Origin: Caldithrix abyssi DSM 13497
GTDB lineage: Bacteria; Calditrichota; Calditrichia; Calditrichales; Calditrichaceae
Length of the DNA stretch: 64,000 nucleotides
NCBI RefSeq assembly: GCF_001886815.1
Contig: NZ_CP018099.1
Span: 4,586,501-4,650,500 of the forward strand
Reading direction: 5' to 3'
Shown: positions 30,190-35,989 of the stretch, piece by piece
Layout of the letters: every line of letters begins with the position of its first letter
Position numbering within the stretch: position 1 is the first letter of the stretch
Position numbers and translations under genes: made by a program
Notes under the pieces: model-generated
Told to the model about the DNA's origin: nothing
Database searches by the model: none
Seen by the model: only the letters and a program-made list of their open reading frames with translations

Positions 30190-32007
30190 ATGCGTAAATT
30201 GTTAGCTATTTTAAGTTTTGTATTTATGCCTGTTTTTATTTTTTCTCAGGCAACTTTGAGTACCGGAGATGTCGCTATTGTAGGGTTAAATTGTGATAAT
30301 CCTGATGAGTTTTCATTTGTTGTTATGGTAGATATTCCTCCAAATTCTGAAGTAAAATTCACAGACAATGGCGTAAAGTCAGACGGCACATTTAGGACAG
30401 GAGAAGGAATTATTACCTGGACTTCTCCGTCAACTCAACTTACAGCAGGTACTGTTATTAATATTAAAAATGATGGAGCGTGGAGTACAAGTGAGGGGAC
30501 AGTTTCTGTTTCTGGTGGGTTTTATTTATCTACGAGTGGAGATCAAATAATTGTTTATCAAGGAAGTGAATCGGATCCAACATATATCTATGCTTTAAAC
30601 GATCAAGGGACTGGTTGGCAATCAGATGCAACAAACTCTAATGATTCAGCCTTACCCCCTGGTTTATCGGATGGTTACACAGCAATAGCTTTAGACGAGA
30701 TTGATAATGCTGTTTATAATGAATCTGTAACAAGTGGCACTAAATCAGAATTGCTTACAGCAATTAGTAATAAAGCAAATTGGAACGGGGATAATGATAA
30801 TAGACAAACCATGCCAACAGGACCATTTACCGTTATTGAGTCTAACAACACAACCGTTCAGTTCGCTACTGCGTCCGGAACCGCCGACGAAGGCGCCGGC
30901 ACCTATGACCTGGTGGTTACCATTGCCAATCCGGACGCCAATAACGCCACCACAGCCGATGTGGTGCTGGTTAGCGGCGACCCCGCAGATCTGGGCAACT
31001 ACACCACGCAAACCGTTACTTTTCCTGCCGGCAGTTCCGCCGATCAAATCGTGACCATCACCATTACCGATGATTCTGAGGTGGAAGGCGACGAAGACTT
31101 TACCTTTCAATTACAGAATGTGAGCGGCGGCAACGGCGCCATGGCCGGGAGCCCCTCGCAACACGTTTTGACCATCACCGACAACGATTTTGCCGACGTA
31201 CCCGACATTGTGATTAACGAAATCATGCAAAACCCCTCCGCCGTTGACGACAGTAAAGGCGAATGGTTTGAACTGTACAATAACGACACGGAAACCGTGG
31301 ATATTAACGGCTGGATCATCAAAGATGACGGCGTCGATTATCACGTTATCGACAATGGCGGTCCGCTGACCATTGCCCCGGGCGAATACCTGGTACTGGG
31401 CAATAATGACACGACGACGGTAAATGGCGGCGTACCGGTGGATTATATGTATGATAACTTTCTTTTAAGCAACAGCGATGATGAAGTGGTGCTGGTGTAC
31501 AGCGACGGCGTTACCGAAGTTGACCGCGTCAATTACGATGGCGGCCCCAACTTCCCCGATCCCAGCGGCGCTTCCATGGAATTAAAAAACCCTAACTATG
31601 ACAACAACGATGGCGCTAATTGGGATACGGCAACTACTCCTTTTGGCGATGGCGACCTGGGAACGCCCGGCGCACGAAACTCCAATTTCGTCAGCGCGCT
31701 GGAAGATGCCCCGGCTTTAAATGTTGAGTCGTTCAAGATTATGCAGAACTATCCCAATCCGTTTAATCCGGAAACGAAGTTATTAGTACATCTTTCCAGC
31801 AATGTAAGGCAGCTTAAGATCGATATTTTTAACGCCGCCGGACAGCATGTAAAGTCGATTTATCAGGGGGCATTAAGCGCAGGACAACACACCTTTTCAT
31901 GGAACGGCAGAGACAACAGCGGCAAGAATAGTCCTTCCGGCGTGTACTTTGCCACCATGAAAAGCGCTAACGCCCAACATTCTATTAAAATGATTCTCCT
32001 GCGTTAA
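30190..32007 (+). CDS. Secreted mosaic protein: lamin-tail, Calx-beta, T9SS sorting domain
   Basis: 605 residues. Signal peptide 1-19. Domains in order: an N-terminal beta-rich domain (about 20-215) with STSGDQIIVYQG and AIALDEIDNAVYNE, found in many Bacteroidota secreted proteins; a Calx-beta-type domain (about 220-330: GTADEGAGTYDLVVTI ... DDSEVEGDEDFTF); a lamin-tail domain (about 335-495: DIVINEIMQNPS ... GEWFELYNN); and a T9SS sorting domain (about 515-605: MQNYPNPFNPETK). The first domain is encoded in clearly AT-richer DNA than the rest (see findings). Start has AAGGAG. Confidence 0.82.
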   Translation: MRKLLAILSFVFMPVFIFSQATLSTGDVAIVGLNCDNPDEFSFVVMVDIPPNSEVKFTDNGVKSDGTFRTGEGIITWTSPSTQLTAGTVINIKNDGAWSTSEGTVSVSGGFYLSTSGDQIIVYQGSESDPTYIYALNDQGTGWQSDATNSNDSALPPGLSDGYTAIALDEIDNAVYNESVTSGTKSELLTAISNKANWNGDNDNRQTMPTGPFTVIESNNTTVQFATASGTADEGAGTYDLVVTIANPDANNATTADVVLVSGDPADLGNYTTQTVTFPAGSSADQIVTITITDDSEVEGDEDFTFQLQNVSGGNGAMAGSPSQHVLTITDNDFADVPDIVINEIMQNPSAVDDSKGEWFELYNNDTETVDINGWIIKDDGVDYHVIDNGGPLTIAPGEYLVLGNNDTTTVNGGVPVDYMYDNFLLSNSDDEVVLVYSDGVTEVDRVNYDGGPNFPDPSGASMELKNPNYDNNDGANWDTATTPFGDGDLGTPGARNSNFVSALEDAPALNVESFKIMQNYPNPFNPETKLLVHLSSNVRQLKIDIFNAAGQHVKSIYQGALSAGQHTFSWNGRDNSGKNSPSGVYFATMKSANAQHSIKMILLR

Positions 32008-32042: not shown

Positions 32043-32077
32043 AAAAAGGCGGGGCATGAAATCTCCCCGCCTTTTTT
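32043..32077 (+). terminator. Intrinsic terminator after the mosaic secreted gene
   Basis: AAGGCGGGG and CCCCGCCTT flank a 10-nt loop and are followed by TTTT, 36 bp after the stop. Confidence 0.9.
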
Positions 32078-32244: not shown

Positions 32245-33579
32245 ATGAAAAATATAATTTTAATAATGGTTTTAATGTTCGGCGTAAGCATTGCAGCAGG
32301 GCAAACGATCTACCTCAGCGATGATTTTGAAGACGGCGATATTTCTAACTGGAAGCAAATTCCCGATTCCAATTGGACTGCTTCTACCATCGCTCCCATC
32401 ACAGGCAACTATTCTTTAAAGCACGCCCTGGCCGATACATTTGGCTCCAGTCATATCACCTATCCCATGGATAGTATTGATGTGCGTCATAAGAACATAA
32501 CCTGGCGTTTTAACCTGAAAAACGGCTCGTTCGATCCAACCACCGCCGTAAAGTTTTGGGTGTATCTGATGGTGCACGATACCACGGCAGTAAACGGCTA
32601 TGCGGTTGGCGTTAACCTTTCTGGTGAGAGCGACAGCCTTTCTTTGTGGAGATTGACCGCCAGTCAGCCAGATACGTTATTTTTGACCACCAGTTTCGAC
32701 TGGCAGCCCAATTCGCTGGTAGGTATTGAAGTTACAAGAGATTCGCTGGGCGTATGGGAGCTGAAATACGACTCAAACGGCAATTTTGACAATTTGATTA
32801 CGGCAGGCGCGGCTAAAGACGATGTTTATACGGCCATGAATTATTTTGGCATGTCGTTTTACTTTAAAACCGCTGAAGCCGGAGAAATATGGCTGGACGA
32901 TGTATTGATTCAGGATGCATCGCGAGTAAACGTGGCCGTCAAATCGTTTCTACAGGGACCGTTTGCGGCAGACACCATGGCCACCGATCTTTTGGCGCAG
33001 GATTTCATCCCGCAAAATCAACCTTACCATTCTTCTCCCTGGAATTATAATGGCGATGAAATTGTTTTAAATATGCCTTCCAATGTGGTTGACTGGATTC
33101 AGGTTCAATTGCGCACAGCGACCGACTCTGCTTCCACAGTGGCCACGCGCAGCGCGTTCATTACCAAAAATGGCATGGTAACCGATCTGGACGGCTACAG
33201 CCCGGTAAGTTTCTCTGGAATTGCAGACGGCAATTATTATGTGGTGCTCCGTCATCGAAACCATCTGGCGGTTATGACGGCCAATCCTTTGCCCCTATCT
33301 GTACAGACCACGCTCTACGATATGACCACCGGCCAGGATAAAGCGTATGGTTCATTGCCGCTGGTGGAATTGACAACAGGCGTTTACGGAATCCCCACGG
33401 GCGATGCCAATGCCAACGGCCAGGTGCAAAATGATGACAAAAATGATTTCTGGAACTCTCAGACCGGTCTGGCCGGTTATAAATCGGCTGATTTCAATGT
33501 GAACGGACAGGTGCAGAATGACGACAAGAACGATTACTGGAAGCAAAACGTGGGAAAAGGAACTTATGTGCCGTTCTAA
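32245..33579 (+). CDS. Secreted protein with two dockerin-like calcium-binding segments
   Basis: 444 residues. Signal peptide 1-19 (ILIMVLMFGVSIAAG). The N-terminal about 210 residues look like a concanavalin-like beta-sandwich (DDFEDGDISNWKQ, GEIWLDDVLIQD). The C-terminus ends in two dockerin-like loops: DANANGQVQNDDKNDFW (about 392-408) and DFNVNGQVQNDDKNDYW (about 421-437), each with the D-x-N-x-N-G spacing of a calcium-binding EF-hand-like loop. It has no T9SS sorting domain, unlike its neighbours. Start with AGGAGGG. Confidence 0.75.
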   Translation: MKNIILIMVLMFGVSIAAGQTIYLSDDFEDGDISNWKQIPDSNWTASTIAPITGNYSLKHALADTFGSSHITYPMDSIDVRHKNITWRFNLKNGSFDPTTAVKFWVYLMVHDTTAVNGYAVGVNLSGESDSLSLWRLTASQPDTLFLTTSFDWQPNSLVGIEVTRDSLGVWELKYDSNGNFDNLITAGAAKDDVYTAMNYFGMSFYFKTAEAGEIWLDDVLIQDASRVNVAVKSFLQGPFAADTMATDLLAQDFIPQNQPYHSSPWNYNGDEIVLNMPSNVVDWIQVQLRTATDSASTVATRSAFITKNGMVTDLDGYSPVSFSGIADGNYYVVLRHRNHLAVMTANPLPLSVQTTLYDMTTGQDKAYGSLPLVELTTGVYGIPTGDANANGQVQNDDKNDFWNSQTGLAGYKSADFNVNGQVQNDDKNDYWKQNVGKGTYVPF

Positions 33580-33615
33580 CAATTAGAGTAAATAAATAAT
33601 AAAAAGGAGATAAAA

Positions 33616-34497
33616 ATGTTTAGAGGGAAGTTGATTATATTAATCGCCTTTATGGCCAATGTCCTGTGGGCAACGGGCATTACTTTTACCTTTGAAAATA
33701 TCATGATCACCAGGGCGTCGGGCTTGATGTACTACGAGTTTGACGTGATGGCGCAAGCCGATCAGGCAGGCACCAGAATCGGGGATAATCAGGTTTACAT
33801 CAACTACAATACGCTTGGCTTCGGAACGAATGTGGCGGCCAATGGCAAAATCACCGTAGAAAAAGGAACACTGCTCAGCGGCGAACTGGTAGCCGGCCTG
33901 CCGTTATACGGAATTGTACAGGTGGTCGATAATGCCGATTCACGATTTGCGGTTACTGTTGAATACAAGTACCCGGACTCGCCTGGCTCGGCCAACGAAC
34001 TTTTGACCACTCCAGAACAACTGCTGCACATTAAAATCGAAATTGCCGATTCCAACCAGACGGCCGGACTCAGCTTTGAAGAGGCGTTGATGGTCGGGCA
34101 GCAATATCAATCGGATAATTCAACTAAATACTCGCCGGTGGTGGCTACCGATACCGATGACAGTCCCCTGGACGACACGCCAAGCGCCGTGGAGCAAAAT
34201 GGCCAGGTCGTTCCTGATCGATTTTATCTGTACAGCAACTATCCCAATCCCTTTAACCCGAGTACGACGTTGAAGTTTGACCTGCCGCAAAATGTACAGA
34301 ATGTGCGATTGGTCATTTACGATATTCTCGGACGCCAGGTGGCCGTGCTCTATTCCGGCAGCCTGATGGCAGGACGCTACACCTATATCTGGAACGGACA
34401 AAATCAATTTGGCGCGCCCATGCCTACCGGAGTTTACTTTGCCAGTTTTAAAGCAGATAACTATTCTAAAACCATTAAAATGATGCTGGTCAAATAA
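33616..34497 (+). CDS. Secreted protein with sorting domain; candidate cohesin-like partner
   Basis: 293 residues. Signal peptide about 1-20. A single beta-sandwich-like domain (about 22-185) with NQVYINYNTLGFG, GTLLSGELVAG and QLLHIKIEIADS precedes a linker and a T9SS sorting domain (about 205-293: LYSNYPNPFNPSTT). The domain order (one beta-sandwich plus sorting signal) would suit a surface-anchored binder, and it directly follows a dockerin-like protein in the same orientation. Family assignment as cohesin is inference only. Start with AAAAGGAGATAAAA. Confidence 0.7.
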   Translation: MFRGKLIILIAFMANVLWATGITFTFENIMITRASGLMYYEFDVMAQADQAGTRIGDNQVYINYNTLGFGTNVAANGKITVEKGTLLSGELVAGLPLYGIVQVVDNADSRFAVTVEYKYPDSPGSANELLTTPEQLLHIKIEIADSNQTAGLSFEEALMVGQQYQSDNSTKYSPVVATDTDDSPLDDTPSAVEQNGQVVPDRFYLYSNYPNPFNPSTTLKFDLPQNVQNVRLVIYDILGRQVAVLYSGSLMAGRYTYIWNGQNQFGAPMPTGVYFASFKADNYSKTIKMMLVK

Positions 34498-34533: not shown

Positions 34534-34600
34534 GAGTAAAGGCGTATTAAGGCCTGAATGGTTCAAAATTTAAGTCTTAATACGCCTTCTTACTCTTTTA
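34534..34600. terminator. Bidirectional terminator between convergent genes
   Basis: GAGTAAAGGCGTATTAAG (34534-34551) and CTTAATACGCCTTCTTACTC (34576-34595) form a long stem with two bulges, followed by TTTTA. It serves the secreted protein on the plus strand and the MmgE/PrpD gene that ends at 34598 on the minus strand. Confidence 0.8.
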
Positions 34601-35989
34601 CCCCTTTAACAATCTCATCAATTCCGCTGTGTCCTCTACCATTTCCAGTTGATTGACCATTGCTACAATCTGATCGCGTCTGCGCTGTCCTGTCACAGCC
34701 AGAACCATGGAATCAAATTTTTTCAACAAGGTCTCCTCATCCATAGGTGTGCGGTAATCGCCAATGGGGTAGTCCAGCACCTTACGGAAGGTTTTGCCGT
34801 TTTTGGTTTTAATTTTGGCGGCTGCCTGTTTTAAAGCCGGAAAGGTCTTTTCAAATTCTTCATTAACCACCACCTTAATTTTAGGCAAAAGGGCGCGTAT
34901 TTGCGGATCGAAGATTTTTTCCTGAGTAAACGATTCCGGAGTGACGGCGCCATCCACAATGACGGCAGCCACGCAATAGGGCAAACTGTGGTCGGCCGTT
35001 TCACGCGTTTGTGGGTCGTATTTGGTCGGATCCGCCAGAATATCCGCCGCACGGGCAATGGTTTCGATGATTACCTCTTCAATAGAATCTTTATCGATTT
35101 GCTTCTCTTTCATCAGTTGTAAAACGGCTGACAGCGGCGTGTGCGTCAACGCTTCAGTGGGAAATGCTTTCATGGAGCAGCGGTTGATGCGGAAGCTCTC
35201 TCCCAGGCCGTCGAGCAGAATATCCAGATCAAACCGCCCGCCAAGGGTATCCACCAGTCCCTCTTTGCCGTCTATAACGTGAGCGGGGCCTTCGTAACCC
35301 CGTTGCGCTAATAAGGCACCCTGAAGGCCTGCCTGCGTGGCCATGGGATCAACTGTGTTTTTCATCATGGTCAAATGACCGGCCGTAACCACGCCCAGCG
35401 TAAAGGTGTGCGAAGCTGAGATGCCCACGGCGTGCGTCAATTGTTCTTCAGAAAGATCGAGTATTTTGCCGGCAGCCAAAGGCGCCGCAAAGCCGGTCAG
35501 CGTGGCGTGATGCCATTTACGTTCGCGCAGGCCCGGTTTGGCAAATTCGCACAGGCGTTGTTCCCATTCGTAAGCCAGCACAATGGCGGTAATCAGCTCT
35601 TTGCCGGTTTTGTGTAAAACTTCTGCCGGAGTTAAAACGGCGGGAATTAAATCACTGGGATGCGAAGGATCCTCTTCCCAGTAAATGTCATTATAATCCA
35701 GGGCGCGAATCATCAACGAGTTAAGTAATGCGGCATTTAAAACAGGTAGCTTTCGGGCAGAATTAATAACGCTCGCATCTTCTTTACCGCCCATATCATT
35801 GTAAAATGACCGCATAATTGCCACGTCGTCGGTTAAGCTTCCGCCAAAGGCACAACCTATGGAATCGAGCAAAAAACGCTTTACGTTTTGAATGGTCGTT
35901 TGATCAAGATCTTCAAAGGTGAGGCGCCTGGTAAATTGCGCCATTTTATAAGTGATGAATTCTTTTTGCATGCTTGCCATTCCTTTCAT
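34598..35989 (-). CDS. MmgE/PrpD-family protein
   Basis: 463 residues, usual length. Family includes 2-methylcitrate dehydratase (PrpD) and cis-aconitate decarboxylase. Signatures: LLDSIGCAFGGS near 38-50, GISASHTFTLGVVTAGHLTMMKNTVDPMA near 190-220, and KAFPTEALTHTPL near 270-285. No other methylcitrate-cycle gene is adjacent, so the substrate is open. The ATG at 35989 has AGGAGGAA 11 bp upstream; internal ATGs at residues 4 and 7 are alternatives. Confidence 0.85.
   Translation of the reverse strand: MKGMASMQKEFITYKMAQFTRRLTFEDLDQTTIQNVKRFLLDSIGCAFGGSLTDDVAIMRSFYNDMGGKEDASVINSARKLPVLNAALLNSLMIRALDYNDIYWEEDPSHPSDLIPAVLTPAEVLHKTGKELITAIVLAYEWEQRLCEFAKPGLRERKWHHATLTGFAAPLAAGKILDLSEEQLTHAVGISASHTFTLGVVTAGHLTMMKNTVDPMATQAGLQGALLAQRGYEGPAHVIDGKEGLVDTLGGRFDLDILLDGLGESFRINRCSMKAFPTEALTHTPLSAVLQLMKEKQIDKDSIEEVIIETIARAADILADPTKYDPQTRETADHSLPYCVAAVIVDGAVTPESFTQEKIFDPQIRALLPKIKVVVNEEFEKTFPALKQAAAKIKTKNGKTFRKVLDYPIGDYRTPMDEETLLKKFDSMVLAVTGQRRRDQIVAMVNQLEMVEDTAELMRLLKG

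Follow-up and report, generated by a model that had tools for sequence, protein, structure and literature searches.

Two adjoining genes of Caldithrix abyssi DSM 13497 encode secreted proteins, here called P1 and P2, for which predicted fold and genetics support an action like that of a type II X-dockerin/cohesin pair, a likeness of fold and context and not of membership in the cohesin family PF00963. We consider it likely, with good confidence, that P2 is exported and anchored by the type IX secretion system (T9SS) and that it holds P1 through a Ca2+-dependent, type II-like cohesin-dockerin contact. Because the profile of P2 is unlike those of the Pfam cohesins, this reading rests on fold, gene context and fusion. 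The genes lie in a stretch of 64,000 nucleotides, referred to as the window, in whose numbering all positions of the pair are given. The host genome is complete (4.98 Mb), and its relatives are Calditrichota MAGs.

Layout of the gene pair and its domains

The preliminary description of the window proposed that a dockerin-like protein is captured by a surface-anchored neighbour, and its account of the two genes agrees with our results. Both reading frames were found on the same strand, 36 bp apart. P1 carries two dockerin-like loops near its C-terminus and no T9SS sorting domain recognised by Pfam or NCBIfam, and P2 consists of one beta-sandwich followed by such a sorting domain (TIGR04183 at 2.6e-9, plus FlgD_ig/Por_Secre_tail). 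The features are listed below.

32043..32076, + strand: perfect 12-bp hairpin followed by a T-run, terminator-like, upstream of P1-P2 (AAAAAGGCGGGG/CCCCGCCTTTTT)
32245..33579, + strand: P1, 444-aa secreted protein with a C-terminal X-module-dockerin, without T9SS sorting domain
32245..32301, + strand: putative signal peptide of P1, MKNIILIMVLMFGVSIAAG, no lipobox; read from the sequence by its composition
32302..32916, + strand: N-terminal domain of P1, carbohydrate-binding-like (Pfam matches of homologues, PDB profile match)
32920..33393, + strand: X-module-like beta-domain of P1 (AF2 model m1fed56c119c0; Foldseek matches to type II X-dockerin chains)
33394..33576, + strand: dockerin-like domain of P1, two Ca-loop/helix repeats (sequence, homologue matches, AF2 model, Foldseek)
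33403..33453, + strand: loop 1 of P1, DANANGQVQNDDKNDFW, residues 387-403
33490..33540, + strand: loop 2 of P1, DFNVNGQVQNDDKNDYW, residues 416-432
33616..34497, + strand: P2, secreted protein of 293 aa with a cohesin-like domain and a T9SS sorting domain
33616..33675, + strand: putative signal peptide of P2, MFRGKLIILIAFMANVLWAT, no lipobox; read from the sequence by its composition
33676..34176, + strand: cohesin-like domain of P2, residues 21-187 (AF2 read-through model, Foldseek)
34231..34494, + strand: T9SS type A C-terminal sorting domain of P2 (TIGR04183, PF18962; FlgD_ig match)
34539..34588, + strand: hairpin of 21 nt (86 percent complementary) that follows P2 and marks the end of the probable two-gene unit

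Since hairpins bound the pair on both sides, the upstream one being perfect and T-rich, P1 and P2 probably form one two-gene transcription unit. Both hairpins were detected by an inverted-repeat search and missed by a consensus terminator scan. Directly upstream lies a 605-aa protein (30190-32007) with lamin tail, Calx-beta and T9SS sorting domains, separated from P1 by the terminator-like hairpin. Downstream, a protein that by eye looks MmgE/PrpD-like (34598-35989, minus strand) is convergent with the pair. In the case of P2, the features of a T9SS cargo were found together, namely a signal peptide (by eye), a type A sorting domain and, in the host genome (G000), the translocon SprA (SprA_N match at 1.2e-31).

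Two parts of P1 had been overlooked in the preliminary description. Firstly, a beta-domain precedes the dockerin, and the two together form an X-module-dockerin unit, in the following simply called the module. Secondly, residues 20-224 form a carbohydrate-binding-like domain: four of eight homologues match CBM_4_9 in Pfam (best 6.5e-4), and a profile of the domain touches the xylanase C chain 4xup at 0.0017. This N-terminal domain can be aligned across the Calditrichota pairs and is replaced by other domains elsewhere. Matches of P1 to GLEYA and poxvirus P4A were below the cut-off and were rejected.

Predicted folds of the module and its partner

The module of P1 (residues 226-444) was modelled alone with AlphaFold (pLDDT 86.6, pTM 0.87). 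When this model was compared to the PDB with Foldseek, type II X-dockerins ranked first (4u3s_B, 8.4e-4), followed by 4wi0_B, 2b59_B and 4fl4 and, lower, by 5m0y_B and 5k39_B. These matches cover the full module, with an Ig-like X-module directly before the dockerin as is characteristic of type II X-dockerins. The dockerin part itself contains two 12-residue Ca loops, which read D.N.NGQVQNDD in the sequence, and in the model a helix comes after each of them. The glutamine at position 9 of both loops is unusual, the residue at this position usually being D, N or S, so that Ca2+ binding by P1, although suggested by the loops, is not assured. Searches of PDB sequences with P1 and with the profile of its module gave nothing useful. 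Pfam Dockerin_1 (PF00404) does not match P1 of the window, and it matches 12 of 24 homologous modules, at best with 8.9e-6.

P1 and P2 lie in one frame, and reading the TAA stop as Q therefore yields a continuous chain of the P1 module and P2, in which the signal peptide of P2 serves as an artificial linker. This in-frame read-through was modelled with AF2 from 28 aligned rows, natural fusions included. The mean pLDDT was 89.7, with both domains mostly above 90, and the pTM was 0.78. For domains of ~220 and ~170 residues placed at random and joined by an unordered linker, we estimate a pTM near 0.55-0.6; judged by pTM only, the model thus suggests that the module and the P2 domain are confidently placed relative to each other.

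The cohesin nature of P2, previously a conjecture, is supported at the level of the predicted fold, which is the jelly-roll of cohesins. Foldseek of the read-through model against the PDB gave 860 matches at E<=10 and 30 at E<=0.001; among these 30 best matches, 29 are type I or II cohesins and one is a pilin, with 3fnk as the best (2.8e-5). The top cohesin matches have a probability of 1.00 and a TM-score to the target of mostly 0.5-0.67. At the level of sequence profiles, P2 of the window is unmatched by the Cohesin profile PF00963, alignment of the P2 family to the local Pfam cohesins with hhalign gave no match (0.4 percent), and hmmsearch of PDB sequences with a P2 profile found no cohesin. 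The kinship of P2 with cohesins is consequently one by fold only. Pfam and NCBIfam recognise neither the dockerin of P1 nor the cohesin-like domain of P2 in the window, and in the host genome neither Dockerin_1 nor Cohesin of Pfam found a match; with profile searches as the only tool, the pair would have been discarded.

Neighbours, fusions and the loop signature among relatives

The P1-type module is present in 13 of 40 Calditrichota genomes and the P2 domain in 10. A module with the loop signature described below accompanies P2, adjacent and on the same strand, in nine of these ten genomes and occurs in none of the 30 others; in the tenth, P2 is close to the edge of a contig. Fisher's test of this co-occurrence gives p=3.7e-8, a value which, the genomes being related, is not a true probability. 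In a scan of the collection, relatives of P2 were found in Calditrichota, KSB1, Cloacimonadota and unplaced bacteria, with the module immediately upstream except in the contig-edge case, and in L051 and L054 the module, the P2 domain and the sorting tail form a single polypeptide. The Cloacimonadota group contains P2 in 20 of 125 genomes, 18 of them newly met. In 16 of these 18 the module is directly upstream or fused, 12 being fusions; the exceptions are a contig start (L151) and a long ORF with no module in the stretch read (L152). Altogether the two are fused in 14 genomes. The pair is thus, as had been asked of it, conserved: module and P2 are adjacent or fused in nearly every genome with P2, in at least three phyla. 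Isolated copies of P2 were seen in G042 (L105) and G165 (L165); the former (1384-2319 of L105) has no recognised sorting domain and no module gene upstream.

The division of labour between the two proteins is also widespread. Over all loci, 64 of 67 distinct modules belong to proteins that end there without a sorting domain. In the remaining three, which are fusion proteins, a cohesin-like domain stands before the sorting tail (in L077 by eye only). Conversely, 20 of 21 relatives of P2 carry the sorting domain.

To describe the loops, we used the signature [VI]Q[NT]xD[KN]N. Both repeats read this way in 15 of 16 modules that adjoin or are fused to a P2 relative, the exception being L104 beside a divergent P2, and in none of 32 modules without such a partner. 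As the sequences counted here are those from which the signature was derived, these counts are a description and not an independent test. At the sequence level, the loops of P1 are not a product of chance, as the signature goes with P2. Other loop types occur in the Cloacimonadota pairs, but within a dockerin both repeats are often of one type; this would be expected if either repeat can offer the partner an identical binding surface. G044 has two further signature modules away from its one P2. Its three signature dockerins, which share this P2 as possible partner, belong to the P2-adjacent protein, to a C10 peptidase and to an FG-GAP protein.

A parallel pair and further candidates were found in two other genomes. 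In G031 (L134/L124), 29 bp separate a module gene of the GGID type from a downstream gene for a 298-aa protein in which Pfam recognises a cohesin (3.8e-7) and Por_Secre_tail. Likewise, L128 and L136 of G031 and L143 of G030 show a module gene and then a sorting-tail protein with a cohesin-like N-terminus, which is weak by Pfam (0.017, L136) or seen by eye only. These pairs suggest that a dockerin protein lacking the sorting domain, with a sorting-domain cohesin encoded next, is a general arrangement. G031 moreover encodes ~19 X-dockerin-module proteins (L127-L140) without sorting domains, the longest ORF having 3,260 aa. Their module stands at or near the C-terminus, and in several it is followed by a short extension of at most 69 residues.

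Proposed surface docking, its alternatives and its precedents

In the mechanism that we propose, T9SS would export P2, whose sorting domain would attach it to the cell surface. The dockerin of P1, stabilised by the X-module and by Ca2+ in its two loops, would bind the cohesin face of P2, and in this docked state the carbohydrate-binding-like domain of P1 would be displayed on the surface. P1 could possibly cross the outer membrane docked to P2, or be captured after export by another route, which raises a testable question on how proteins with a signal peptide but without T9SS sorting domain reach the surface. A bolder and rather doubtful extension is that the contact is an export device: binding would take place in the periplasm, and the folded complex would be carried through the T9SS pore, one sorting signal exporting many cargoes in trans.

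Dockerins and cohesins of different molecules could also join head to tail into surface fibres, the window pair being a reduced version of such a system. The fusions of module and P2 domain would fit, and so would a 402-aa ORF of G031 that contains both a Pfam cohesin and the module. We regard this as unlikely, as P1 of the window has no cohesin domain and the window pair therefore cannot polymerise by this contact; it is, at any rate, compatible with docking as the explanation for the window pair. Cohesin-like N-termini that would allow chains were observed on module proteins in L110 (Pfam cohesin) and, by eye, in L104, L056 and L057, where Pfam does not confirm them.

Frequent fusion with a ~20-30-residue linker could alternatively mean that the module and the P2 domain are consecutive domains of one stalk, whose gene was split in some lineages, with a contact that is not cohesin-dockerin-like. 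This is improbable, since it explains neither the X-dockerin and cohesin fold matches, nor the tracking of P2 by the loop signature, nor the several signature dockerin proteins per one P2 in G044. It is more improbable still that P2 is just one T9SS cargo among others and that the loops of P1 have a purely structural role: two secreted proteins could in principle share an operon without touching, but their conservation as neighbours or fusions across phyla and the predicted cohesin fold of P2 speak against it. A cellulosome proper was rejected, as no multi-cohesin scaffoldin was found in the host genome, which has one P2 with one cohesin-like domain and no Pfam cohesin or dockerin.

The proposed docking of P1 on P2 has precedents, and the pair is for this reason counted as a variant of a known principle. 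In clostridia such as C. thermocellum and A. cellulolyticus, cellulosomes are held on the cell surface by type II X-dockerins (PMC5141474). As in P1, the X-module and the dockerin with two Ca loops are C-terminal there; the cohesin is on a separate anchored protein, and the predicted folds are the same. In contrast, the anchor of P2 would be a T9SS sorting domain, and the envelope is a Gram-negative one; P2 offers one cohesin per anchor and lacks detectable sequence-profile similarity to the Pfam cohesins, and the cargo in the window is a small carbohydrate-binding-like protein instead of a scaffoldin. For the Cloacimonadota member Ca. Stygibacter, dockerin enzymes were proposed from annotation together with a cohesin scaffoldin whose C-terminal domain is of the T9SS type (PMC8542988). 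In both cases, secreted proteins bear dockerins, and a cohesin protein has a C-terminal domain that would attach it to the surface. That scaffoldin, however, has 3,755 aa and tandem cohesins recognised by InterPro, whereas P2 has a single cohesin-like domain that Pfam does not recognise, and P2-type partners are encoded adjoining or fused with their own dockerin. By its title, the survey of Peer et al. 2009 (cited in PMC8542988) concerns cohesin- and dockerin-like modules outside cellulosomes, as here. The main text of the Caldithrix abyssi genome paper does not mention dockerin, cohesin or type IX secretion (PMC5317091). The pair is not described in the titles and abstract openings of openly licensed papers on cohesin, dockerin and T9SS, nor in the text of PMC8542988 and PMC5831590, the two that were searched in that form.

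If true, our proposal would extend type II cohesin-dockerin docking at the surface to bacteria with a T9SS in several phyla that have been little studied, and docking would work there by a cohesin-like family that standard libraries miss. The loop signature would predict which cargo fits which socket and thus offers a natural set of docking specificities. In relatives, the P2-type socket may hold other cargo, for example the C10-family cysteine peptidase of G044. There, L066 and L073 hold adjoining large secreted proteins with signature dockerins, one of them with Peptidase_C10, while the only P2 is on another contig.
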